From positions 24,284 through 88,283 of the forward strand of contig VXQT01000019.1 in NCBI GenBank assembly GCA_009838915.1: 64,000 nt of DNA, read 5' to 3'. Positions 4,507 through 36,930 of this stretch are shown here, in pieces (position 1 is the stretch's first letter; the number at the start of each line of letters is the position of its first letter). Made by a program: the position numbers and the translations under genes. This stretch comes from Chloroflexota bacterium (GTDB lineage Bacteria; Chloroflexota; Dehalococcoidia; Bin125). Below the pieces are notes generated by a model. It saw only the letters and a list, made by a program, of their open reading frames with translations. It was not told where the DNA came from and made no database searches.

Positions 4507-5121
4507 ATGAGCCTGCAATACGGAGCCCTGCGGGAGATCATCGAGACTGCAATCCTTGGGCTGATCGTCTTCTTGCTCGCCCGCGAGGCGGTCCAGAACT
4601 TCCAGGTCGAGGGGCGCTCGATGCAGCCCACGCTGGCCAGCTCGGAGCTGGTCCTGGTCAACAAGATCGGCTACTGGGAGGTCGACCTTGGCCCCTTCGA
4701 CGCCCTGCTTCCCGGCCGCAGCAACGGCGACTTCCTGCTCTCCGGCCCGCACCGCGGCTCGGTGATCATCTTTCACCCGCCCTACCAGAGCGCGCATGAC
4801 TTCGTGAAGCGCGTCATCGGTCTGCCCGGCGACACGGTCGAGATTGCCGCCGGACGGGTGTTCGTCAACGGCGTCGAGCTGAACGAGTACGGATACATCT
4901 TCGAACCGCCCGGCTATCAGTGGGGACCGGCGGTGATCCCGCCCGAGCACTACTTCGTGCTCGGCGACAACCGCAACAGCAGCCAGGACTCGCACGCATT
5001 CGGGCCGATACACGAGGACCAGATCGTCGGCGAGGTGATGTTCCGCTGGTTCCCGTTCAACAAGATCAGCAGCGACATCTCCCGGCAGGCGATCGATTAT
5101 GAGGGGAACATCGTGCCATGA
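4507..5121 (+). CDS. lepB: signal peptidase I
   Basis: 204 residues. One N-terminal membrane helix (about 12-30, ETAILGLIVFLLAREAV) is followed by the extracytoplasmic catalytic domain. The nucleophile Ser38 lies in VEGRSMQPTL and the general-base Lys101 in DFVKRVIGLPGD. The C-terminal box YFVLGDNRNSSQDSHAFGPI is complete. The enzyme cleaves signal peptides from exported proteins. I chose the ATG at 4507 because the protein then begins just before the membrane anchor as in the family; a longer frame upstream would run into the divergent gene. It overlaps pyrE by 4 bp (ATGA), so the two are co-translated although functionally unrelated. Confidence 0.96.
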   Translation: MSLQYGALREIIETAILGLIVFLLAREAVQNFQVEGRSMQPTLASSELVLVNKIGYWEVDLGPFDALLPGRSNGDFLLSGPHRGSVIIFHPPYQSAHDFVKRVIGLPGDTVEIAAGRVFVNGVELNEYGYIFEPPGYQWGPAVIPPEHYFVLGDNRNSSQDSHAFGPIHEDQIVGEVMFRWFPFNKISSDISRQAIDYEGNIVP

Positions 5122-5705
5122 GCGACCTCGACAGAGCTGGGCAGGGCGAGGCGATGCGAATGCTGGAAGATGCCGGTGCGGTGTTGCGCGGACACTTCCA
5201 GTATGCCTCAGGACGGCACGGCGACACGTACATCGAAAAGTTTCGCCTGCTGGAGAAACCGCACGTGACCGAGGCGCTGTGCCGCCGCATCTCCGATCAC
5301 TTTCTCCCGCTCGCGCCAGAGCTCGTCGTCGGTCCGACCACCGGTGGCATCCTGCTGGCCCACGAGACGGCGAAGCATCTGGGCGAAGGCATCAACGCCT
5401 ACTTCGCCGAACGGGCCGACAAGGGGGGGCGCTATCTCGGACGCGGATTCTCGGTCGCGGCCGGACAACGGGTGCTGGTGGTCGACGATGTGCTCACAAC
5501 CGGCGGATCGGTGCGGGACACGCTCGACGCGGTGCAGGCAGTCGGGGGGCTGCCGATCGGCGTCGGCCTGGTGGTGGACAGGACCAACGGCGCGACCGAC
5601 TTTGGCGGTCTCGACCTGTTTGCCTGCCTGTCGATCGACGTGGCCAGTTACCAGCCGTCAACTTGCGCCCTCTGCGCAGACGGCGTCGACTTAACAATCA
5701 CCTAA
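5118..5705 (+). CDS. pyrE: orotate phosphoribosyltransferase
   Basis: 195 residues. Transfers phosphoribose from PRPP to orotate to give OMP in pyrimidine synthesis. Evidence is the N-terminal GHFQYASGRHGDTYIEKF, VVGPTTGGILLAHE, and the PRPP-binding signature VLVVDDVLTTGGSVRDTLDA. The length and motif order match PyrE. The start overlaps the lepB stop (ATGA). The 3' end overlaps the convergent membrane-protein gene by 4 bp, leaving no room for a separate terminator between them. No other pyrimidine gene is nearby. Confidence 0.95.
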   Translation: MSDLDRAGQGEAMRMLEDAGAVLRGHFQYASGRHGDTYIEKFRLLEKPHVTEALCRRISDHFLPLAPELVVGPTTGGILLAHETAKHLGEGINAYFAERADKGGRYLGRGFSVAAGQRVLVVDDVLTTGGSVRDTLDAVQAVGGLPIGVGLVVDRTNGATDFGGLDLFACLSIDVASYQPSTCALCADGVDLTIT

Positions 5706-6385
5706 CCGAGGGCGTGGACGAAGATTCCGGAACCGACGCCAGCCAGGTCTGCGAGCATCGACAACGCCAACGCGTAGATCGCGAAGCCCATACCGACGCT
5801 GATCACCGCGGCGCGGTCGTCGGCGTCCGGGGCGGCGGCGCGTACCGCGAGGATCGCGAGCAACAGGGCGGCCAGGGTCGTTACCAGTCCAACCGCGAAG
5901 CCTGCGGGACCGGCGATCATAAAGAACTGCCAGACGAAGAAGCCGCCGGCCACCGCCATCGTGCGGGCGAGGGCGCGAAGCTCGACCTTGACCTGGAACA
6001 CGACGCCCAGCGCCCGCCAGGTGAGAACCGTCCACAAGCCCCATGCCACCAGTGAGGCGAGAGAGCCAAGCAGCATCACACGCAGTGCAGAGTCACCGAC
6101 CACCGCGCCGCGGCTCTCGATCACCAGCCAGAGCCAGGCGCCCAGGCTTGCGGCCAGCACGCCCAGCACCAGCACCATCGCCGCCGGTCCATTGTCCGAC
6201 TCGGTGCGCGCCGCGTCGCGCAGCACGCTCAGATCTCCGGCCAGCAGGCGGCGATGCAAGGCGACGGCCCGTCGCCAGTCGATTGGCGCGTCGAGTCGTT
6301 CCAAGTAGGTCGCAACCGACACACGAGTGCCGCGACCCTGGGGTCGAGGCAGTGCGGCGGATGGATGGGTCTTGAGCTGAGTCAT
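5702..6385 (-). CDS. Yip1-like multi-pass membrane protein
   Basis: 227 residues. A roughly 65-residue cytosolic N-terminus is followed by about five hydrophobic helices (beginning at AAMVLVLGVLAASLGAWLWL and ending near the C-terminus with VISVGMGFAIYALALSML). The overall pattern, with a polar N-tail and five helices, resembles Yip1-domain proteins. No catalytic motif is visible and the role is unknown. It is convergent with pyrE, overlapping by 4 bp, and divergent from the uracil-DNA glycosylase gene with about 90 bp between starts. Confidence 0.6.
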   Translation of the reverse strand: MTQLKTHPSAALPRPQGRGTRVSVATYLERLDAPIDWRRAVALHRRLLAGDLSVLRDAARTESDNGPAAMVLVLGVLAASLGAWLWLVIESRGAVVGDSALRVMLLGSLASLVAWGLWTVLTWRALGVVFQVKVELRALARTMAVAGGFFVWQFFMIAGPAGFAVGLVTTLAALLLAILAVRAAAPDADDRAAVISVGMGFAIYALALSMLADLAGVGSGIFVHALG

Positions 6386-6478
6386 AACTCCTCGCCTACA
6401 TACGGCGTGCGCGTACGCTCACTATGCATCGGTGTTCATCAGCGCCCGCCAGTGATTCGTAAACTCGGATTCTGCAAC

Positions 6479-7174
6479 GTGAACTCTGCAACGAACGCAC
6501 GGGAGCTCGCCGCGCTAGACCGCGAAGTGTCCGTTTGTCGACAGTGCCCACGCCTGGTGGCCTGGCGCGAGCAGGCGGCAACCGAGAAGCGCGCGGCATA
6601 CCGTGACCAGGATTACTGGGGCCGCGCGGTGCCCTCGTTCGGACCTGCGGATGCGCGCATTCTGGTCGTCGGACTGGCGCCGGCGGCCCACGGCGCCAAC
6701 CGCACGGGACGGATGTTCACCGGCGACCGCTCGGGCGACTGGTTGTACCGAGCGATGTGGCAAGCAGGACTCGCGAGTCAGCCCGAATCCACCTCAATCG
6801 ACGACGGTCTAGAGCTGCGCGGGACGCGAATCACTTCGATCGTCCGCTGCGCTCCGCCGGAGAACAGACCGTCGACCGACGAGCGCGACCTCTGTTTGCC
6901 TTACCTGCGGCGTGAGTTCGACTTGCTCTCGGAGCTGCGAATCATCCTCTGCCTCGGTTCGTTTGCGTGGGAAAACTGCGCGCGCGAACTGGGAGTGCGA
7001 CCGCGTCCGAAGTTCGCACACGGCTTGGAGCACAGGATCAATGACCGCACCTTGATCTGTTCGTATCACCCCAGCCAGCGCAACACCTTCACCGGTCTGC
7101 TGACCGAAGAGATGCTCGGCGATGTGTTCCTGCGTGCCGCGCAGTTGGCTCAGGGTGGCTCGGTCGACTCGTAG
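6479..7174 (+). CDS. uracil-DNA glycosylase, family 5 (UDGb type, Fe-S)
   Basis: About 231 residues from a GTG at 6479; a GTG at 6452 in the same frame is an alternative, and neither has a strong ribosome-binding site. UDGb removes uracil and deaminated purines from DNA as the first step of base excision repair. Motif I is GLAPAAHGANRTGRMFTGDR, and the late DNA-binding loop is SYHPSQRNTFTG. Cysteines for a 4Fe-4S cluster are in VCRQCPRL, IVRCAPPENRP and WENCAREL. Families 4 and 5 share the cluster, but motif I with GLAPAAHG is the family-5 form. The 3' end overlaps the convergent 5'-nucleotidase gene by 25 bp. Confidence 0.9.
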   Translation: MNSATNARELAALDREVSVCRQCPRLVAWREQAATEKRAAYRDQDYWGRAVPSFGPADARILVVGLAPAAHGANRTGRMFTGDRSGDWLYRAMWQAGLASQPESTSIDDGLELRGTRITSIVRCAPPENRPSTDERDLCLPYLRREFDLLSELRIILCLGSFAWENCARELGVRPRPKFAHGLEHRINDRTLICSYHPSQRNTFTGLLTEEMLGDVFLRAAQLAQGGSVDS

Positions 7175-9372: not shown

Positions 9373-9815
9373 TCTTCGATCGCTGTCGCCCCTGCCGACA
9401 CGTCGGTCAGGGCAATCAGGTTCTGCGCTCGGGATGCATACGAGGCTTCCGGCAAGTCATCGGTAATCGTGTACACCTCCCAGCGCGTGCCGGAGGGATC
9501 CGAGACCCAGACCTTGTCCTGTTCCGCATGGCAGCAGACAACGCCGTCTTCGATCTCCGTGTCGAGTCCCAGTTGACCGAATCGCTGGGTCTCGGCGACC
9601 ACTTCGCCCGCCGTCTCGACCTCGACGCCCAGATGGTTGAGCGGCGCAGCCGCACTCGGGTTCTCAATCAGCACCAGCTTGAGCGGCGGGTCGTCGACCT
9701 CGAAGTTGGCATAGCCGGGCCTGACCTTGTGCGGCTCGGTGCGGAACATCCGCGTGTAGAAATCTACTGCCGAGTCGAGTTCCGCAACGTTCAACGCCAG
9801 TTGCACTCGTGACAT
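9339..9815 (-). CDS. arsI: ArsI/CadI-family VOC protein, probable organoarsenical C-As lyase
   Basis: 158 residues from an ATG at 9815 with GAGGAG 7 bp upstream; an upstream ATG at 9839 lacks one. The sequence follows ArsI closely: MSRVQLALNVAELDSAVDFY, PHKVRPGYANFEVDDPPLKL, NHLGVEVE, and the substrate-binding Cys pair in VCCHAEQDKVWVSDP, followed by WEVY. The Fe(II) ligands expected in the family (Gln5, the His of NHLG, the Glu of WEVY) are present. A C-terminal tail has three more cysteines (EDCCADGGLC). ArsI cleaves the carbon-arsenic bond of trivalent methyl- or aromatic arsenicals using oxygen. No other arsenic gene is nearby. It lies between the 5'-nucleotidase and SsuD-like genes on the same strand. 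Confidence 0.85.
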   Translation of the reverse strand: MSRVQLALNVAELDSAVDFYTRMFRTEPHKVRPGYANFEVDDPPLKLVLIENPSAAAPLNHLGVEVETAGEVVAETQRFGQLGLDTEIEDGVVCCHAEQDKVWVSDPSGTRWEVYTITDDLPEASYASRAQNLIALTDVSAGATAIEDCCADGGLCVG

Positions 9816-9835
9816 GTGGGGTCTCCTCAACAGCC

Positions 9836-10954
9836 TCAATCCGCGACAGCCAGGGCCGGCTCGTCACTCGTCACACTCAGCCTATTGCGTTCCTGGACGA
9901 TCGGCATCACCCATTCGCCAAAGCGGGTGGCCTCCTCGTCGTGCGGATATCCCGACAGGCAGAACTCGGTGCAGCCGATATCGACGAACTCCTGCAGGGT
10001 GTCCGCAACCTGATGCGGATTACCGACCACGGCCAGCCCGGCACCGCCGCGCACCGTGCTCAATCCGCTCCACAGGTGCGGCGCAATGCGGTGATCGTTG
10101 TCTTTCGATTCGTCGGCGAGCTGCCACATCCGGCTGTCCGCCTCCGACTCGCCGCGCCAGTTCTTGCGCAGCTCGCGCTGCCGGTCAGTTGTGCCCTCGA
10201 TCAAGCTGTGGGCCGCCGCCCAGGCTTCCTCCTCCGTTTGCCGCACGCAGACCTGAAGCCGCATACCAAAGGTGATTTCGGGGCGCCCGAAACCATCGGC
10301 GCGACGCTTGACGTCGGCGACCTTGACGGCTGTCGCCTCAGGCGTGTCACCCCAGAAGAAATAGCAATCGGCGTGCTTGGCTCCAACCTCGCGGGCCGCG
10401 TCCGACTCGCCGCCGATGTAGAAGCGCGGCCAGGGGTCTTGGTACGGCTTGGGATGGGCGTGCGCGCCGCTGAGCTGATAGTGCTTGCCGTCCCAGTCGA
10501 TCCGCTCCTGCGAGGACCACAGCGCCTTCATCACCTGGACCGATTCGTCCATCACCTCGTAGCGCTCGTCGTGGCTGTAGGTGATCCCGTCGCCCGCCAA
10601 TTCGCGCGCGTTGCCGCCGGCGATCAGGTTGACGTACACGCGACCCTCGGAAAGCTGGTCGAACGCGGCGATCATCCGCGCCATCTGCGTCGGCAGGATG
10701 TAGCCGGGACGGGCGGCAACCAGCATTTTCAGCTTGGTCGTCCTGGCCGACATCATCGCCGTCGAGATCCAGGCTTCCCAGCAGGTCGGCGTCACGGGAA
10801 CCAGCGCGTACTCGAAACCGGCTGCCTCCGCCGCCAGCGCGACCCGATCGAACATCTCCATCGAGGCGGGGATGAACTGGTCAGGATCGGCGAAGTTGGT
10901 CAGGTCGCCGTGCGTCGGGATATACCATCCGAATCGGATCGGGGAGTCAGTCAT
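9836..10954 (-). CDS. LLM-class flavin-dependent monooxygenase, alkanesulfonate monooxygenase (SsuD)-like
   Basis: 372 residues, close to SsuD in length and order of motifs: WYIPTHGD at the start, VPVTPTCWEAW (the Cys of the SsuD active-site region), LVAARPGYILPT, LIAGGNARELAGDG, RFYIGGESDAA, FFWGDTPE, LSTVRGGAGLAVVG, and FCLSGYPHDEEA. SsuD oxidises alkanesulfonates to aldehyde and sulfite with FMNH2 and O2. A flavin reductase partner is not in the window. Close relatives act on other sulfonated, sulfone or carbonyl substrates, so the exact substrate is open. A tandem 15-bp repeat lies just upstream of the start. Confidence 0.88.
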   Translation of the reverse strand: MTDSPIRFGWYIPTHGDLTNFADPDQFIPASMEMFDRVALAAEAAGFEYALVPVTPTCWEAWISTAMMSARTTKLKMLVAARPGYILPTQMARMIAAFDQLSEGRVYVNLIAGGNARELAGDGITYSHDERYEVMDESVQVMKALWSSQERIDWDGKHYQLSGAHAHPKPYQDPWPRFYIGGESDAAREVGAKHADCYFFWGDTPEATAVKVADVKRRADGFGRPEITFGMRLQVCVRQTEEEAWAAAHSLIEGTTDRQRELRKNWRGESEADSRMWQLADESKDNDHRIAPHLWSGLSTVRGGAGLAVVGNPHQVADTLQEFVDIGCTEFCLSGYPHDEEATRFGEWVMPIVQERNRLSVTSDEPALAVAD

Positions 10955-10962
10955 GCGCGATT

Positions 10963-10992
10963 CTCAATCTTGGCCAACTCAATCTTGGCTAA
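10963..10992. repeat. tandem 15-bp direct repeat upstream of the SsuD-like gene
   Basis: Two adjacent 15-bp units, CTCAATCTTGGCCAA at 10963-10977 and CTCAATCTTGGCTAA at 10978-10992, differ at one base. They begin 9 bp upstream of the monooxygenase start. Position and repeat form would suit a regulator-binding site or a leader element, but no regulator gene is adjacent. Confidence 0.6.
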
Positions 10993-11075
10993 TGTAGTGA
11001 GGTTAGTGCGGAATTGCGCGCCATGCCAACGCCGCGGCGGAGCGAACGACGATGGTTTCCTGAGGAGTGCCGACC

Positions 11076-11501
11076 ATGACATTGAACACCTATCTCACCT
11101 TTCGGGACACCTGTCGCGAGGCGTTCGAGTTCTATCGTTCCGTCTTCGGCGGCGAGTTCTCGACGCTGCAGACCTTCGGCGACGGCCCGCCCGACATGGG
11201 CGTGCCCGACGAGGCCAAGGACCTGATCATGCACGTCTCGCTGCCCGTCGGCGACAGCATCCTGATGGGCAGCGACGCCAATCCTGCAGCCGACTCCAGA
11301 CCAATCGTGGGCAACAACTTCTCGATCTCATACTCACCGCCCGATCGCGATGTCGCCGACCGGGCCTTTGCCGCGCTGTCCGATGGCGGCGAAGTCGCAA
11401 TGCCGATGGCCGAGATGTTCTGGGGCGCGTACTTCGGTTCCTGCACGGATCGCTTCGGGATCGCCTGGATGATCAACGTCGAGCCGCCGCTATCTGACTG
11501 A
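11076..11501 (+). CDS. PhnB-like VOC (glyoxalase/3-demethylubiquinone methyltransferase-like) protein
   Basis: 141 residues from an ATG at 11076, chosen because GAGGA lies 9 bp upstream; an in-frame GTG at 11067 overlaps that site. It has the PhnB-like form of the VOC fold: LTFRDTCREAFEFYRSVFGGEF, LIMHVSLPVGDSILMGSD, then FWGAYFGSCTDRFGIAWMIN. These small proteins are common and mostly of unknown function; the family's usual metal-site His appears only in MHVSL. It is followed 53 bp downstream by the SDR gene. Confidence 0.8.
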   Translation: MTLNTYLTFRDTCREAFEFYRSVFGGEFSTLQTFGDGPPDMGVPDEAKDLIMHVSLPVGDSILMGSDANPAADSRPIVGNNFSISYSPPDRDVADRAFAALSDGGEVAMPMAEMFWGAYFGSCTDRFGIAWMINVEPPLSD

Positions 11502-11554
11502 GCGGCGCCCTCGCGTACGATGACGACGCAACAGGCGCCGCACTGGAGGCACTC

Positions 11555-12355
11555 ATGGGCAAGCTCGACGGCAAGGTGGCGATCATCACCGGCGGCAACA
11601 GCGGAATCGGGGCGGAGACGGGCCGCCTGTTCGCCTCCGAGGGCGCGAAGGTCATCCTCATGGCGCGACGCGTGGCGGAGGGCGAAGCGATCGTCGCCGA
11701 GATCAACGAATCCGGTGGAGAAGCGACATTCATTGCCTGTGACGTGGGCGACAACGACTCGGTCGTCGCAGCGGTCGAGCAGGCGGCCGGCACCTACGGA
11801 CAGATCGACCTGCTGTTCAACAACGCCGGCGGCGGCGGCCCCGGAACGTTCCCCAATGAACCCAACGAGGACTGGCTCCGGGTGATCAACGTCAACCTGA
11901 CCGGCACCTTCTATGTCAGCCAGGCAGTCTGGCCGCACATCGCGGCGCAGGGCGGCGGGGCCATTGTGAATATGTCCTCGCTCGCCGCTCAGCGCGGATT
12001 CTCCTCACGCATGCAGGACGAGTTCGGCACCGCCTCGGCCTCCTATTACGCGGCCAAGGCAGGTGTCGACGCGCTCACGCGATACATGGCGGGGGCCGGA
12101 GGCCGGGACCACATCCGCGTCAACTGCGTCAGACCGGGTCAGATCATCACGCCGGGAGCGACGCGCGGCACGTACAACGATCCGGACGGCGGGCATCACG
12201 TCTTTGAGAAGATGTTCGACTTCGCGCAGATCGTGCAGGGGCCCGGCTACTCAATTGATGTCGCCAACCTGGTCCTCTTCCTGTCCTGCGACGATTCCCG
12301 CTTCATCACGGGAGAGATCATCAACATCGACGGCGGCGTCGCGGCGAAGATCTAG
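11555..12355 (+). CDS. short-chain dehydrogenase/reductase
   Basis: 266 residues with GGAGG upstream of the ATG. Classical SDR features are visible: cofactor loop TGGNSGIGAETG, NNAG motif in LLFNNAGGGG, catalytic Ser in IVNMSSLAAQ, and the catalytic Tyr/Lys in SYYAAKAGVDAL. The C-terminus FITGEIINIDGGVAAKI is typical of FabG-like and glucose-dehydrogenase-like SDRs. It oxidises or reduces an alcohol/ketone with NAD(P). The first strand is followed by MARR (about residue 36), which would favour NADP, but this is inference. Substrate unknown. It is convergent with an enoyl-CoA hydratase gene. Confidence 0.92.
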   Translation: MGKLDGKVAIITGGNSGIGAETGRLFASEGAKVILMARRVAEGEAIVAEINESGGEATFIACDVGDNDSVVAAVEQAAGTYGQIDLLFNNAGGGGPGTFPNEPNEDWLRVINVNLTGTFYVSQAVWPHIAAQGGGAIVNMSSLAAQRGFSSRMQDEFGTASASYYAAKAGVDALTRYMAGAGGRDHIRVNCVRPGQIITPGATRGTYNDPDGGHHVFEKMFDFAQIVQGPGYSIDVANLVLFLSCDDSRFITGEIINIDGGVAAKI

Positions 12356-25135: not shown

Positions 25136-27469
25136 CTATCGCGGACTGATCGGGCGCGGCGCGGGCTCTCCGGGGACGCGCCTGTCGGTCAGGCCGGCGA
25201 TCACCTCGTCGGCAAGCAGCCGCTCGATGCGCTCAGCCTCGTAGCCGAGCGTCTCCGACAGGATCTCAACGGTGTGCTCACCCAGTCTTGGCGCCGGCCG
25301 ATCACATGTCGCCGGCCGTCGCCGAAGCCGCCAGGGGAATCCCTGGTACTGGCGTGTGCCCGTGTCGGGGTGCGCCAGGTACAACCACCAGTTGCGCGCG
25401 GCCAGGTGGGGGTCTCGCAGGTGAGTCAACGTTGAGTGCACTGCTGCCGCCGGCACGCCGATGCGCTGCAACCGGTGCTGCAATGTATGCGCGTTCCAGT
25501 TCCGCGTCCACGCCGTCAACTCCTGTTCAAGCGCGGCTTCGCAGTCCTTCCGACCGGCCGAGGTGCGCCACTCCGGGCGATCCAGGTCGGCAAACCCGGC
25601 CAACCGAAGCCAGGTCGCGTCGTCGGGGACGGAAATCGCGATCCACTCGTCGCGCCCGTCGACGGCGTCGGCGCAGCGGAAACACTCGTGCGGCGCGGCG
25701 CCCGGGACGCGGTTCCCGTTGCGCTCGGGCATCTGCTCACCGGCCGAGGCGGCCAGCAGGTACTCGTCGATGTAGGCGACGGCGGACTCGAACATCGAGC
25801 CCTCGACATGAATCGAAGCCCGCCCGTTCTGCGCAGCGAGCACCGCCGCCAGCGCCGCCGCCGCCATTTGCGCACCGACGATCGGATCGGCCTGCATCGT
25901 GCCCAGCATCAGCGGCGCTTCGCCTGCGTAGCCGTAGAGCAGGTCCCAGCCGGCGTTGCCCTCGGTCGTCCCGCCATTGGCGCGGAAGTTGTCGTAGGGA
26001 CCTCCGGTGCCGAATCCCGAGAACGAGACCAGCGCAATTTGCGGATTCACCTCGCGCATGTGCGCGTGCGTGAGGCGCAGATTCTCCAGCACCCGCGGAC
26101 GGAAGTTCTCCAGCACGACATCGGCGCGCGCGACCAGGTCGAGCGCGATCTCGCGTCCCTGATCGGTGTCAAGCGCGACTGATACCGTGCGCTTGCCTCG
26201 ATTGGCCATGTTGAAGTTGGGCCGCACGTTGAGCGGATGCGCGTCCGGCGACACGACACGCATCGGCTCGGCCGCGTCGTAGCGCCAGAGGTCGGGACGC
26301 TTCGGTCCCTCGACCTTGATCACCTCCGCGCCAAGATCGCTCAAGAGCGTCGTCGCATACGGACCCAGCCATGCGTGGGTGAAGTCAACCACCCGCAGAC
26401 CGTCCAACGGACCTGTGCTCGACTGCGGACGCGCCCGCTGTGCGAATCGGTCAGCCCGAGGCACATCGTCCTCGTGCTTCGTCACCCGCATCGCCCGACC
26501 GGCGCCGGTCAGCTCTTGCTCCTCGTGGAAGAATCTGATCGCATTGAGCTGCGGATCCTCCATCAACTGACGCGCCGAGCGATGCATCGCCATCACCGAG
26601 CCCAGCTCGGACAGTTTGGTCCAGATCGCCGCGGCGTCCAGCGACTCGACAATCGGCTGCACGTATGCCTTCGACGGCTCCTGCTCGGCGAACCTGGTCT
26701 CCCCTTCCAGCAGTTCGGCCGGCGGCGGCTCGACGCCGAAGGCGATTGGCAGATTGCGCAGCGTCTCCTTGGACCAGGGTGAGAGCGTGATGTAGCCGTC
26801 GGCGGTTTGGATCACTTCCGCCCAGCCCGGGGTGCCGCCGACCCGGGGCAACGCTTCGCCCGAGAACTCCGAGCGCAGCGACATGATCAGCGTCGAGCAA
26901 GCTTCCAGCGAGGACAACTCGATCCACTCGCCGCGGCCCGAGTGCAGCCGATCGAGCAGCGCCGCCAGCGCGGCGACCGCGCCAAGGATGCCGACCGCGC
27001 GCGGGATGATCGCGGCCGGCGCGGCCAGCGGCTCACGTCCCGCCAGTCCATTGGTACCCATGAATCCCGCCAGCGCCTGCACGATCAGGTCGTCAGCCAG
27101 GAAGTCCGCATAGGGCCCGTCCGTGCCGAACGGGGATGCGTGGACGACGATGAGCGCCGGAGATTCCTCGGCAATGCCGCCAAGCTCGTCGAGCGGCGCG
27201 TCGCTGATCAGCACATCGGCATCCAACAGTTCCGAGCGCCAGTCGCCGGCACCCATCGTCTTGCCGATCATCAGCGAGTGACGCAGCAGCGAATACGGCT
27301 CGCCGTCACGCTCGATGAGCGGCGGCGCGGCGCGCAGGCGGGAGTCCGGCGCTTCAAAGCAATGCACGTCCGCGCCCCAGCGGGCGAACTCGCGGGCGCA
27401 GGCGGCTGCCGGGATGTCGCGGCTGTATTCGACGACCCGCAGGCCCCGGAGCAGGTCCCCCTCGCTCAC
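25136..27469 (-). CDS. tandem-domain CaiB/BaiF family CoA-transferase
   Basis: 777 residues from a GTG at 27469 with CGGAG 9 bp upstream; the longer frame covers the enoyl-CoA hydratase gene in another frame. Two complete family III CoA-transferase modules: one from residue 1 (GLRVVEYSRDIPAAACAREF) and one from about 355 (GLRVVDFTHAWLGPYATTLL, SDLGAEVIKVEGP). The second has the catalytic-position Asp528 in MQADPIVG; the equivalent place in the first (AAIIPRAVG) has none. The family moves CoA between carboxylic acids as a dimer, so this looks like a covalent heterodimer with one active half. It is 14 bp downstream of an enoyl-CoA hydratase gene, suggesting CoA activation and hydration of the same acid. 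Confidence 0.88.
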   Translation of the reverse strand: MSEGDLLRGLRVVEYSRDIPAAACAREFARWGADVHCFEAPDSRLRAAPPLIERDGEPYSLLRHSLMIGKTMGAGDWRSELLDADVLISDAPLDELGGIAEESPALIVVHASPFGTDGPYADFLADDLIVQALAGFMGTNGLAGREPLAAPAAIIPRAVGILGAVAALAALLDRLHSGRGEWIELSSLEACSTLIMSLRSEFSGEALPRVGGTPGWAEVIQTADGYITLSPWSKETLRNLPIAFGVEPPPAELLEGETRFAEQEPSKAYVQPIVESLDAAAIWTKLSELGSVMAMHRSARQLMEDPQLNAIRFFHEEQELTGAGRAMRVTKHEDDVPRADRFAQRARPQSSTGPLDGLRVVDFTHAWLGPYATTLLSDLGAEVIKVEGPKRPDLWRYDAAEPMRVVSPDAHPLNVRPNFNMANRGKRTVSVALDTDQGREIALDLVARADVVLENFRPRVLENLRLTHAHMREVNPQIALVSFSGFGTGGPYDNFRANGGTTEGNAGWDLLYGYAGEAPLMLGTMQADPIVGAQMAAAALAAVLAAQNGRASIHVEGSMFESAVAYIDEYLLAASAGEQMPERNGNRVPGAAPHECFRCADAVDGRDEWIAISVPDDATWLRLAGFADLDRPEWRTSAGRKDCEAALEQELTAWTRNWNAHTLQHRLQRIGVPAAAVHSTLTHLRDPHLAARNWWLYLAHPDTGTRQYQGFPWRLRRRPATCDRPAPRLGEHTVEILSETLGYEAERIERLLADEVIAGLTDRRVPGEPAPRPISPR

Positions 27470-27483
27470 CGCCGCCGACTCCG

Positions 27484-29226: not shown

Positions 29227-30285
29227 ATGGCGTTCGAGTACGCGGGCATCGACTTGCCGATTCGAGAGAAGACGATCGCGTCCCAGCGAATGAGTTGGGA
29301 GATGATCGCCCGTCCGGGCCGCTGGTGGACCGGCGCGGAGCGGGTCGAAATCGCCCGAATCGGTCGCGCCGCCCGAGAGCTCGAGGCCGTTGGCAGCGAG
29401 CTGCTTCCTGAAGCGGCCGTCTACGCGATCCAGAAGCTGGTAGTCGACAACGCCAATCTCAATCGCGAGTTCTACGCGGAGGTCGTCGCCGCCGAGGGCA
29501 TGACCGAGGATCGCTACGTCGAGCTGGTCGCGGTGGTCGTGCACTCGCTCTCGATCGACGAGTTTCATCGCGCCCTGGGAATCGAACCGGAACCGCTGCC
29601 GGAACCGATCGCCGGCGAGCCGAGCAGGCAGCGGCCCGCGCTGGCCGAACAGCGCGACTCCTGGCCGCCGCTCGTGCCCAGGCAGGGTCTCAACCGGGGC
29701 GATGACGTGTTCTACGGACCACTCGAGTGGGGCGCCAACGTGATCTCGGCGCTCTCGCTCGTGCCCGAGAACGTGCGTTGGCTGCACGATCTCTCCGAGG
29801 GTCACTACCTGTCCTTTGCAGAGATGCGGCAGCCCGACCCGCTGCGCGCGATCTCGCGGCCGCAGATCGAGTTGATCGCGTCACGTGTCTCGGCGCTCAA
29901 CGAGTGCTTCTATTGAACTGCCTCGCATGTACGCATGCTCCGTGAGAGCAGCAAACGCAACGGCAGCCTGGACAGCCTCAATCTGCAAGGCGCGGTCGGC
30001 CCCGAGGCCGATTCCGGCGTGCCGCACGGCGACCTGCTGACCGCCTTTGCCGAGGCTGCCGTCCGCCGGACTGACGCGCTGCCCGGTCTGCGCGAGCGGA
30101 TCGCAGCGGAACTCGGTGTGCAGGAATTGGTCGATGCTGCGGGAGTTGTGGCCAACTTTCAACGCATGGTCCGCATCGCAGACGGCTGCGGCATCCCGCT
30201 CGACGAGCTCACCAGGGACGCCACCGACGACGTGCGCGATGAACTCGGCCTGCATGAGTATGCTTCGGCTGCGAACACCGCATAA
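29227..30285 (+). CDS. AhpD-like selenoprotein 1 (Sec230 encoded by in-frame TGA at 29914-29916)
   Basis: Read conventionally, a 229-residue frame ends at TGA directly after ALNECFY. The same frame continues without a stop for 122 codons to TAA at 30283-30285. With TGA as Sec the junction reads Cys227-Phe-Tyr-Sec230-Thr-Ala-Ser-His234, the CxxC-x3-His redox motif of AhpD/carboxymuconolactone decarboxylase-like proteins with Sec for the second Cys. The upstream RQxELIASRVSALNECFY pattern is typical just before that motif. A hairpin at SECIS spacing follows. The predicted 352-residue protein would be a thiol/selenol peroxidase or reductase. GAGG lies 7-10 bp before the ATG. A related copy follows after 35 bp. 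Sec genes (selA, selB, selC, selD) are not in this window and must be elsewhere for this reading to hold. Confidence 0.9.
29933..29952 (+). promoter_or_regulatory. bacterial SECIS-like hairpin of selenoprotein 1
   Basis: Directly downstream of the TGA. Arms GC(A)TGCTC and GAGCAGC pair as seven base pairs with one bulged A, closing a 5-nt loop CGTGA at 29941-29945. The loop begins 25 nt after the TGA and contains GU, within the known range for bacterial SECIS elements that recruit SelB. The second selenoprotein has a loop at exactly the same distance. Confidence 0.75.
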
Positions 30286-30320
30286 CCGCACAGGGCAACG
30301 AGCACCGACAGGAGCCAGCC

Positions 30321-31409
30321 ATGACGACGACGACCTTCCCGTTCGCCTACGCCACGACCGACTGGCCCGTGCTGGAGCGCATGGCCGAGGCGCATCGCCG
30401 CAGTTGGGCCATGCTGGCCGCCCCGGGCGAATGGTGGACGGGCGCTCAGCGAGTCAGCATCGCGGCCGAGTGCCGCCGCGCATCGGCTCTGGTCGACGGC
30501 CTGCCCGATCCCGGGCCTGGTCCGGCCGCATTGTCCGAGGCTGCCCTATTCGCTGTTCACAAGCTGATCGGCGATCTGCCAAACGTCACCCGAGAGTGGT
30601 ACGACGAGACGATCAGCGCCGAAGGCATGTCCGACACCCACTACATCGAGCTGTTGGGCGTCGTCGTGCATATTTGGTCAGTGGACGAGTTTCATCGCGC
30701 ACTGGACATCGAACTGGAACCGTTGCCGGCTCCCATCCCGGGCGAGCCGACGCGCATTCGTCCCCTGGGCGCGAAGCCGCACGGCAGTTGGCCGGCCACC
30801 ATCCGCCCGGGAGATCTGGGCGAAACTGAAGCCGATATCTACGGCGGCGCAGAGTACGCGGCCAACGTCCGCGCCGCGATGAGCCTGCATCCCGACAGTG
30901 TGCGCTGGCTGAGCGATCTGTTCGACGCTCACTACCTGAGCTGGATCGAAATCGGAGGAGAGCAAGAGCCCTTCCGAGTGCTCACGCGTCCGCAGCGCGA
31001 ACTGGTCGCGGCGCGGGTCTCGGCCCTGAACGAGTGCTTCTATTGAACGATTTCCCACGTGATGCTGCTCGGTCGGAGCAGCGAAGAGCACAGCGCGTTG
31101 AACCTGAATGGCACCGTACGTAACGACATCGATAGCGGCGTCGAGCACGGAGACGTGCTGTTGCGATACGCCGACGCCGCTGTCGGCCACACGCCCGATC
31201 TCGCTTCTTCGCGCGAGGCGCTCAACTCTTCGATGGGTCCGGACGCCGTCGTCGATTGCGCCGCGACGATCGCCAACTTCCAGCGCATGGTGCGCATTGC
31301 CGACGGTTGCGGCATCCCCCTGGACTCATTCTCCAGGCAAGAGTCCGCCAAGTGGAGAGACGACCTCGGCATCGATGGCTTCCGCAGCCGAGGCAACACC
31401 TTCGGCTAA
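30321..31409 (+). CDS. AhpD-like selenoprotein 2 (Sec242 encoded by in-frame TGA at 31044-31046)
   Basis: Tandem paralogue of the preceding gene. The frame from the ATG at 30321 (AGGAG 6 bp upstream) meets TGA after ALNECFY and continues in the same frame to TAA at 31407-31409, giving 362 residues. The motif is Cys239-Phe-Tyr-Sec242-Thr-Ile-Ser-His246. Similarity to copy 1 runs along the whole length on both sides of the TGA: RSWAMLAAPGEWWTGAQRV before it, and VxNFQRMVRIADGCGIPLD after it in both. Continued conservation downstream of the TGA is strong evidence that the distal part is translated. Probable selenol-dependent peroxide or disulfide chemistry; substrate unknown. It is convergent with ribH (7 bp gap). 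Confidence 0.9.
31064..31082 (+). promoter_or_regulatory. bacterial SECIS-like hairpin of selenoprotein 2
   Basis: A perfect 7-bp stem, GCTGCTC with GAGCAGC, closes the 5-nt loop GGTCG at 31071-31075. The loop starts 25 nt after the TGA, as in copy 1. The loop sequence differs between copies while the stem and the spacing are kept, which is the pattern expected of a functional RNA element inside coding sequence. Confidence 0.8.
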
Positions 31410-34075: not shown

Positions 34076-35686
34076 TCACAGGCGCTTGATCAACACGTCG
34101 CCCGTCTCGAGATTGCGGCGGTAGTAGCGATAGCCGACCAGCTTGAGCTGTTCGTCGCTCAGTCCGGGAGCCTGGTCGAGGGTGCAGGTCAGCCACTCCG
34201 CTTCGCGCCCCGCGGCCGATGCTTCGCACGACTCGCGCAACCGGTCGGCCGCGCTCTGCGGAGCGTCGGTTTGAATTGCCAGGCAGATGATCGCCGCCAG
34301 GCGCGAGTCCGCGGCTTCCCCACCGACGGCGATCGCGGCGACCCCGAGCACTTCCTCGCCGTCCGCGGAAACAGTCCCGGTCTCGATGCCCCCCGCCGGC
34401 GCGACTGCCACCCAAACGACCGCTTCCCCGAGTCGTGCTGCCGCGAGCAGCTCCTCCGCTCCCGGTGCCTGTGCACCGAGATGCGACGCGATGAGCAGGT
34501 CTATGTCTTCTTCGTCGTCCGGTCCCGCGGGCCGCACACGAACCTGCAACTCACGCTCAGGATCTACGGGGTAACCCGTGATCAGCAGGTCTGATCCCAG
34601 TCGCTCGGTTGTCATCCTATTCAGTCGCAAGACGTCTCTCATTCGCTCGGCTCCGCCGCCGCGCACCGCGGCCTGGGCGTCGCCGCCGATGATCATTGGC
34701 GCGACGACGGCGGTCACCTTGTTGATCAAGCGTTGATCGAAGAAGGAACCGAGCACTTCGCCGCCGCCTTCGACCAGCAGGCTCACGACTCCATGCACCT
34801 GGCCGAGCAACTCCAACACCGCCGGCAGCGAGACACGACCGCCGCGTTCGGCATCCACCGGCAACACTGCGATGTCAACACCGCCTTGTGCGATGCTCGT
34901 TCGCCAGTCGACGTCGGCCGCATCGGTCGTGGTGATCAGAGTGGGCGACTGATCCGTGCCCTGCAACACTCGGCTATCGAGTGGCGTGCGGCCGCGGCTG
35001 TCGAGCACAACGCGCAGCGGCTGCGGGATTGGACCACGCCAGTCTTCGGGCCTGGCGGTGAGCTGAGGATTATCGACAATGATCGTCTCGACGCCGACAA
35101 GGATCGCGTCGAACAACGGGCGGTTCCGGTGCGCCCAAACCAGGGTCTGGGGACCGGAGATCCAGCGTGAATCGCCGCTGGTCGACGCGATCCGGCCGTC
35201 CAGCGAGGCCGCGAACTTGGCAGTGACAAACGGCCGACCTGTGCGTCGATGATGGGCGTACGCCTCATAGTGATCAGCACCCAGCGCGGCGCCGTCGCCC
35301 AGGCTGACCTCGACTCCCGCATCGCGAAGCTGCGCTAACCCGCGGCCCGACACCCGCCGGTCGGGGTCGCCGACGGCGACCACCACCCGATCGATTCCTG
35401 TCTCGATGATCGCTTCAGTGCAGGGAGGCGTTCGCCCGACATGCGCACAGGGCTCGAGCGTTACGTACATCGTCGCGCCGCTCGCCTGGTCGCCGGCCTG
35501 GCGCAGCGCCATCACCTCGGCGTGCGGCATGCCCGGCGGTTGCGTAGAGCCTTCGCCAACAATCCGGGAACCGTGCGCGATCACCGCGCCTACAGCCGGG
35601 TTAGGACTGGTCGTGCCTCGCACCGCGCGGGCCAGCTCGAAAGCGCGCGCCATGTGTCGCGAGGCGCGCGCGGGGCGGACGCTCAT
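34076..35686 (-). CDS. ribD: RibD (pyrimidine deaminase/reductase) with an added C-terminal acetyltransferase-like domain
   Basis: 536 residues from the ATG at 35686, which overlaps the anti-sigma stop (ATGA). Residues about 10-150 form the zinc deaminase: TSPNPAVGAVI, GMPHAEVMAL, and EPCAHVGRTPPCTEAII. Residues about 155-365 are the reductase: RPFVTAKFAASLDGRIA, DSRWISGP, ILVGVETIIVDNPQLT, SLLVEGGGEVLGSFF. A further 165 residues, not part of RibD, resemble a GNAT acetyltransferase (LQVRVRPAGPDDEEDIDLLI at its start, KLVGYRYYRRNLETGDVLIK at its end). Standard RibD is about 360-380 residues, so this is a fusion. Its position directly after the anti-sigma gene puts riboflavin synthesis under the nearby ECF promoter. 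Confidence 0.9.
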   Translation of the reverse strand: MSVRPARASRHMARAFELARAVRGTTSPNPAVGAVIAHGSRIVGEGSTQPPGMPHAEVMALRQAGDQASGATMYVTLEPCAHVGRTPPCTEAIIETGIDRVVVAVGDPDRRVSGRGLAQLRDAGVEVSLGDGAALGADHYEAYAHHRRTGRPFVTAKFAASLDGRIASTSGDSRWISGPQTLVWAHRNRPLFDAILVGVETIIVDNPQLTARPEDWRGPIPQPLRVVLDSRGRTPLDSRVLQGTDQSPTLITTTDAADVDWRTSIAQGGVDIAVLPVDAERGGRVSLPAVLELLGQVHGVVSLLVEGGGEVLGSFFDQRLINKVTAVVAPMIIGGDAQAAVRGGGAERMRDVLRLNRMTTERLGSDLLITGYPVDPERELQVRVRPAGPDDEEDIDLLIASHLGAQAPGAEELLAAARLGEAVVWVAVAPAGGIETGTVSADGEEVLGVAAIAVGGEAADSRLAAIICLAIQTDAPQSAADRLRESCEASAAGREAEWLTCTLDQAPGLSDEQLKLVGYRYYRRNLETGDVLIKRL

Positions 35687-36930
35687 GTCTGTCGGCGACG
35701 ATCCATGACGGTCAGCAGGATCCAAGCCAAGAGCGACCCGAACGCCACAATCGCCAACGCAATCTGGAGCGGCACTTCCCAGGCGGGATCGGATGCCAGG
35801 CGCACACTGCTCGACTGTGGTCGCTGCGGCAGCGGCCACTCGGACTCGACGACCCGCGCCGACGACGTCACGGACTGGGACTGGGAGGCGGTCCCGGTGT
35901 CGGCCACCGCCTGGTCCTGTGGCGATTGGCCGGCACCGTCATCGGAACCGGCGGACTCAACAGTCTCAGTCGTCTCGGTTGCTTCTGCGGCGTCGGTGGA
36001 CTCGACCACAGGCGCTTCCCCGTCCTGCTGCGCAGCATCGGCGGGCGTGGTCGCCTGGTCTGTTGGTTCCTCCTGCTTCGCGATCACGTCCTCGGCGTTG
36101 ACCTCTTGCTGCTCGCGCTGGCCGCTGGAACTGCCGGCATTGAGGGCGCGCCGCGACGGATCGGCGGCGGCCTGCTGGTGCGCTGCCCGGGCGGACTCCG
36201 CCTCTTCCTGCGCCGATTGCTGCCACTCCGCTTCCTCTGCCTGCTGCTGGGCCTGCGCTTGCTCCTGGGCGGCCTGCTCCTGGCTCGTCTGCTCGTCCGA
36301 CTCCGCGCGGTATGCCGCTGCGGTCGCCTGCTCGGCAGGTTCGGGCTGCTCGGCCTGCGCGGCCTGCGCGACCTGCTCGGCCGCTTCTGCCTGTCCCGCG
36401 GACTGCGCCTGCTGTGGTTCGGACGACGCGATCGACACGACGGCGACCGCCGTGCCGTCCGCGTCTGTGGCCGCTTCCTGGCGAGGCGCTCGTTCGGCGG
36501 CGACCTGTGCCGTGGCGGCGCCCGTCTGTACATCGCCGGCGGCCGTGGTGGTGAAGGTCACAGTCGGACGGTCGACTGCGTCGAAGATCAGTACGGCGCT
36601 AAACGTAGCGACGCCGATAGCTGCGGTCGTCATCGAGAGTCGGAGCGCGCGCTCGAGGTTGCTCGCGGGCAGCGGCTCAGCTGTCTGCGAGGCGAGCATT
36701 TCGGGTGTGATCTGGAACGGCGCGCGGGACGGTTCGGCGGCGAACCCACGCAGCGCCGCCCGCATTTGCCGCAGCTCATCGAGATAGGCCTGCATATCGT
36801 CCGAGCGCGCCAGCCGGGCTTCGACTCGCTCCCGCTGGCGCGGAGTCAGCTCGTCGTCGAGGTAGGCGGAGACGTCGGCGCGCCAGTCGCGGCGTCCGAG
36901 CAGTTGCCAGAGCTGCCGACCAAACATCAC
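35683..36930 (-). CDS. anti-sigma factor, membrane-anchored with long Ala/Gln/Glu-rich segment
   Basis: 415 residues. The N-terminus (VSAYLDDELTPRQRERVEAR, then MQAYLDELRQMRAAL) is the anti-sigma ASD/zf-HC2-like helix pair, but without zinc-ligand Cys residues. A membrane helix lies near residue 95-115 (MTTAAIGVATFSAVLIF). About 240 residues of Ala, Gln, Glu, Ser and Thr follow, probably extracytoplasmic and disordered or coiled. A second membrane helix is near the C-terminus (LQIALAIVAFGSLLAWILL) with a basic tail. It lies downstream of the ECF sigma gene and likely holds that sigma factor inactive. The two-helix topology is unusual for an anti-sigma factor. Confidence 0.8.
   Translation of the reverse strand: MMFGRQLWQLLGRRDWRADVSAYLDDELTPRQRERVEARLARSDDMQAYLDELRQMRAALRGFAAEPSRAPFQITPEMLASQTAEPLPASNLERALRLSMTTAAIGVATFSAVLIFDAVDRPTVTFTTTAAGDVQTGAATAQVAAERAPRQEAATDADGTAVAVVSIASSEPQQAQSAGQAEAAEQVAQAAQAEQPEPAEQATAAAYRAESDEQTSQEQAAQEQAQAQQQAEEAEWQQSAQEEAESARAAHQQAAADPSRRALNAGSSSGQREQQEVNAEDVIAKQEEPTDQATTPADAAQQDGEAPVVESTDAAEATETTETVESAGSDDGAGQSPQDQAVADTGTASQSQSVTSSARVVESEWPLPQRPQSSSVRLASDPAWEVPLQIALAIVAFGSLLAWILLTVMDRRRQT

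Follow-up and report, generated by a model that had tools for sequence, protein, structure and literature searches.

A tandem pair of AhpD-related genes in a Dehalococcoidia genome, each probably read through an in-frame UGA as selenocysteine

Do two adjacent bacterial genes, each interrupted by an in-frame TGA, end where that codon stands, or do they encode longer selenoproteins? We explored this question in a 64,000-nucleotide stretch from a Chloroflexota bacterium of the class Dehalococcoidia (contig VXQT01000019.1, positions 24,284 to 88,283), hereafter the window, in which genes A (29227..30285) and B (30321..31409) follow one another on the + strand. Our findings argue that A and B stem from an old duplication and that the one in-frame UGA in each is very probably decoded as selenocysteine (Sec). 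The products would be two-domain selenoproteins of AhpD type, 352 and 362 residues long, likely reductases of hydroperoxides or disulfides. The open reading frame (ORF) of gene A extends to the TGA at 29914..29916 (29227-29916), comprising 229 codons before that triplet, predicted to specify Sec at residue 230, and 122 codons after it up to a TAA ending at 30285. Gene B, whose ATG is preceded by AGGAG, has 241 codons before its TGA at 31044..31046 (ORF 30321-31046; predicted Sec at residue 242) and 120 codons from there to a TAA ending at 31409. The two proteins are 50% identical over their alignment, and in both the TGA is the fourth residue (U) of C-F-Y-U-T-x-S-H. A preliminary description, made from the letters of the window alone, had placed the TGA of both genes at the second redox position of CxxC-x3-His, with frames open for more than 115 codons beyond it and duplicated selenoproteins of about 352 and 362 residues as products, and in all these points it agrees with the frames given here.

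Support comes from the conservation of the codon and of what follows it. When 61 related genomes, the window's own among them, were searched with the B protein, 28 full-length matches were found in 14 of them, and each of the 28 listed has exactly one TGA. Twenty-five could be aligned, the remaining three having no locus of their own; in all 25 rows the TGA falls in the same column, is the sole in-frame TGA and is never replaced by TAA or TAG, which answers the proposal in the preliminary description that homologues be aligned at residues 230 and 242. The ratio of nonsynonymous to synonymous substitution (dN/dS) downstream of the TGA is 0.147 in A (10 rows) and 0.250 in B (13 rows), next to 0.142 and 0.169 upstream in the same sets, which omit the pair from another genus (G017). 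The codons past the TGA are thus under purifying selection and evolve as protein; the outcome that the preliminary description had regarded as fatal, homologues ending here with nothing conserved beyond, is not what the relatives display. Read through, A and B reach 28.9 and 23.8 bits with the Pfam CMD domain (PF02627; cut-off 23). If the TGA is taken as a stop, the first part of A has no match and that of B scores 13.6 bits, and neither downstream piece, taken alone, has a Pfam match.

The length of the open frames, on the other hand, was discarded as evidence: elsewhere in the window two ORFs pass a TGA for longer by accident. These TGA-bridged frames (5099-7171 and 9809-12352, both +) continue beyond the TGA for 285 and 372 codons: in each, a shadow ORF devoid of a Pfam match leads, without a change of frame, into a genuine gene, for a uracil-DNA glycosylase and a short-chain dehydrogenase, respectively. 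In the G+C-rich DNA of the window a long frame past a TGA is not rare by itself.

The genome to which the window belongs (2.87 Mb in 38 contigs, 95.2% complete, 1.8% contaminated) carries the decoding machinery. Its tRNA-Sec scores 70.8 bits (gathering score 47), with the anticodon TCA according to ARAGORN, and SelA, SelB and SelD reach 425.8, 348 (two stretches summed) and 349.6 bits; all four components for which the preliminary description had suggested a search are therefore present. A search of 15 genomes of the genus, the window's own among them, found SelA in every one and a tRNA-Sec match of at least 66 bits in 13. The other two are an 89% complete genome (G003) with SelA and neither A nor B, and an 88% complete one (G012) with both A and B, yet no tRNA-Sec match at that score. 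Three further genes of the window's genome likewise carry TGA at their redox sites and likely encode selenoproteins: SelD itself (CGGU-GSKFG; G000:C24:22895-23836, L021), a peroxiredoxin (TGGU-TNEL; G000 C28:126329-126703, L101) and a thioredoxin-like protein (YAUINC; G000 C22:56196-56513, L107).

Bacterial selenocysteine insertion sequence (SECIS) hairpins lie inside the coding region, directly past the UGA. At this place gene A has a SECIS-like core, UGCUC-CGUGA-GAGCA (29936..29950, +), 19 bases past the TGA, and gene B has GCUGCUC-GGUCG-GAGCAGC (31064..31082, +), 17 bases past it, the 26-base folds giving z of -2.6 and -3.8. Synonymous variation, measured per 7-codon window as the frequency of differing codons between orthologues that share the amino acid, is lowest of all at codons +6 to +12 in both genes: 0.0 in A (median 0.38, 351 windows) and 0.086 in B (median 0.44, 354 windows). 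The peptides encoded there are unlike (RMLRESS in A, MLLGRSS in B), yet UGCUC and GAGCA stand 5 bases apart in both. Over 19 sequences 93% of the cells pair, falling to 25-57% when the partner is shifted by 1-3 columns. A hairpin at a fixed distance in both paralogues is, as far as sequence comparison goes, a candidate SECIS-like element; stem-loops of this sort accompany the new selenoprotein families of the Sargasso Sea, according to the sections consulted of the paper that describes them (PMC1088965).

The protein family itself is known, because a curated model and a review entry for it exist, and the pair adds further members rather than a novel sort of enzyme. The model, NCBIfam NF041238 (AhpD_rel_CFYUT), is an equivalog named 'alkylhydroperoxidase-related (seleno)protein'; A matches it with 350.6 bits over positions 1-356 of 357 and B with 337.6 bits over 3-357, both well above the cut-off of 175, and both contain CFYUT where the family has a CFYU/C-T redox motif. 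A 2026 review (PMC13188914, in the part seen) equates an AhpD-related protein with hypothetical protein 1 of the Sargasso Sea metagenome, with a CxxU motif (PMC1088965), and in the literature searched the accession NF041238 turned up in that paper only. The preliminary description had spoken of AhpD/CMD-like proteins with Sec-containing metagenomic kin; this is right as far as it goes, CMD and NF041238 both recognizing the read-through products, but the relationship is more than a resemblance because the family is the curated NF041238. Other models fit poorly: for the peroxidase-related enzymes of TIGR01926 the scores are 32.1 (A) and 28.6 (B) bits against a cut-off of 81.8, and for AhpD proper (TIGR00777) A reaches 12.5 bits against 191.95 and B has no match at an E-value (E) of up to 1. 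Across the phylum, some NF041238 match occurs in 157 of 400 genomes; four pass the cut-off, all from this genus. With the single-domain AhpD-like selenoproteins (CxxU; AhpD-like 1 and 2 of PMC2398784, as described in the part consulted, and TIGR01926-type), A and B have in common the redox motif with Sec in second place and the C-terminal domain, whereas those proteins, of about 200 residues, lack the N-terminal half. Single-domain genes of this kind with TGA at CxxU-x3-H are themselves common in the phylum (about 200 residues; L067-L092, L039, L041, L042): the TGA was present in 23 of 29 such loci, and the other six are cut or misread stretches.

What, then, might these proteins do? Both are predicted to adopt a double AhpD fold resembling Sestrin2, with an N-terminal half (residues 1-140 of A, 29227..29646, +) that has an AhpD-like fold in the model and no redox cysteines. 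The region of some 225 residues that the preliminary description had noted before the motif does exist, and it is predicted to consist of a second AhpD-like domain plus a linker. A search for homology between the N- and C-terminal halves by HHalign was not significant with either a 25-row or a 53-row N-terminal profile. Sequence identity to Sestrin2 is 11%, and the arrangement is reversed: in the parts consulted of the papers on Sestrin2 and bacterial fused AhpD pairs (PMC4674687; PMC11429811), the active half of Sestrin is N-terminal, whereas in A and B it is C-terminal and bears the Sec. In Sestrins an electronegative hinge (DDYDY) replaces the redox site of the C-terminal half (PMC11429811, part seen); A and B have CFYU-T-x-S-H at that place. 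The proton relay of Mycobacterium tuberculosis AhpD comprises Glu118, Cys130, His132, Cys133, His137 and a water (PMC3141380, from the portion available), and A matches its spacing with Glu215, Cys227, Tyr229, Sec230 and His234, none of which varies across the 25 rows. Compared with that enzyme (TIGR00777), A and B thus have Sec for the second Cys, Tyr for His132 and an additional N-terminal half; PA0269, which shares this Tyr, has weak H2O2-reducing activity, going by a source seen in part. By analogy, A and B are likely peroxide or disulfide reductases. SelB would bind the hairpin starting 17-19 bases past the UGA and deliver Sec-tRNA; as in M. tuberculosis AhpD, the relay of the C-terminal half may then activate Sec in place of Cys133, Sec would attack a hydroperoxide or the disulfide of a partner, Cys227 would resolve it by forming a selenenylsulfide, which would in turn be reduced by a thioredoxin-like partner. 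The N-terminal half, a second AhpD-like domain free of redox cysteines in A and B, might complete a pseudo-dimer as in Sestrin.

Several observations limit the case for Sec insertion and for the hairpin that would direct it. The link between Sec genes and the pair is not strict, one genome (G002) having SelA and tRNA-Sec but neither A nor B. In the hairpin, no compensatory double change was seen among the 19 sequences, only G-U wobble, so that shuffled hairpins are uninformative and covariation was not used as support; the outermost pair is absent in 6 rows and one inner pair is broken in 2. The 26-base folds were picked after the hairpin had been seen, folds of 57 bases do not stand out (z about -0.5), and the codons directly upstream of the TGA are almost as constrained as the hairpin zone. 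The TGAs might be ordinary stops, with proteins of 229 and 241 residues and downstream frames that are remnants or separate genes. Such a reading could draw on the accidental long frames elsewhere in the window and on the databases: in a list of 152 homologues, drawn from two overlapping sets (the top 120 among 393 matches and the top 120 among 808), 150 have their predicted end at the UGA, with C-F-Y or C-F-F as the last residues. Database proteins end there, though, because gene callers do not read Sec, and since 150 of the 152 do so, their catalytic His and last third are lost. The preliminary description had expected annotation to split each gene into two hypothetical proteins; the break at the UGA is real, and the listed relatives retain just the piece before it. 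Termination is nevertheless very improbable: dN/dS is 0.147 and 0.250 past a triplet that all 25 rows have as TGA and none as TAA or TAG, the CMD motif has its catalytic His downstream of it, and the NF041238 model runs on to its end in both proteins. Even less credible is an altered genetic code (such as code 4 or 25) under which UGA would specify a standard residue, Trp or Gly, in place of Sec; the frame alone would permit it and no further support was found, but the RibH, RibE and APH-family genes of the window, all Pfam-matched, terminate in TGA, the further SelA and SelB matches and six other CMD stretches contain no internal TGA, and the genome has the complete Sec machinery.

It is also conceivable, though rather unlikely, that Sec is inserted and that the AhpD-type fold catalyses another reaction, for example reductive dehalogenation. 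The debrominase Bmp8 (6ohi, 6ohj) shares the fold, but a common fold proves no function; Bmp8 is absent from the 11 sequence matches at E up to 1, no sign of dehalogenation appeared here, and none of the five AhpD relay residues is missing. A search for literature on Bmp8 debrominase, or on sponge Dehalococcoidia in connection with selenocysteine, retrieved none. More specific, and more doubtful still, is the idea of a Sec-only, Sestrin-like branch in which A and B act as a hetero-pair and Sec performs a deiodinase-like reductive dehalogenation (a Bmp8-like debromination of halogenated natural products) in place of peroxide reduction. Returning to A and B as AhpD-type selenoproteins, a full-length cysteine form was sought with the motif and everything after it from the B-type protein of G017; none was found at E 1e-5 among 2657 candidates, and distant cysteine forms could have escaped because shared 5-residue words were required, one query was used and the best 120 matches are listed. 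For hypothetical protein 1, a table in the Sargasso Sea paper appears, in the part consulted, to list homologues with Cys (PMC1088965). A CxxC in the N-terminal half occurs in 20 of the 152 listed relatives (e.g. CALCRERAAALS; P0082, P0103-P0120, P0151; L036) and in neither A nor B.

The pair as such is conserved. Of the 14 genomes that yielded full-length matches, 12 have A immediately upstream of B in the same orientation; G014 carries them on separate contigs, and in G004 a remnant is all that adjoins A in place of B (G004:C9:138195-139375). G008 has an extra copy of B (G008:C21:22001-23083) apart from its A-B pair. A tree of 39 rows separates the two proteins of the other genus, grouping the A-like one with the A proteins (83/85) and the B-like one with the B proteins (83/87); at this moderate support, the duplication is likely older than the divergence of the genera. 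Nine named Chloroflexota/Dehalococcoidia loci show A then B in seven and B alone in two; coenzyme A (CoA)-transferase and enoyl-CoA hydratase genes lie upstream of A-B in the seven, RibH-RibBA-RibE-RibD come downstream in six, and an alpha/beta hydrolase gene is present in five. As a clue to function the neighbours were set aside, the setting being conserved yet uninformative. Two nearby frames on the - strand deserve mention in their own right: a RibD-type protein (34076-35839) with about 170 residues past RibD_C that have no Pfam match, possibly a fused domain, and a 781-residue frame (25136-27481) with two CoA-transferase family III stretches, likely two fused copies. No relatives were found on the plasmids and viral contigs searched. 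The sections consulted of the literature on AhpD-like selenoproteins (including PMC1088965, PMC2398784, PMC13188914 and PMC1794560) hold no mention of a tandem pair, nor does PMC12013277 as far as its terms go; likewise, neither the double AhpD fold nor tandem paralogues in a conserved setting, as seen here, were found stated in the portions consulted of the work on NF041238.

Why does such a locus matter? NF041238 is a curated model for which no function, fold or genomic setting was found in the parts consulted of the literature searched. The window offers a usable test case, with adjoining old paralogues that each carry a UGA and a hairpin, within a genome that holds the full decoding set, and it illustrates how gene calling loses such enzymes at the UGA. 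As the word-limited search turned up no cysteine form of full length, it becomes testable whether Sec is indispensable in this branch. The predicted double-AhpD layout, finally, would set a bacterial selenoenzyme beside Sestrin.
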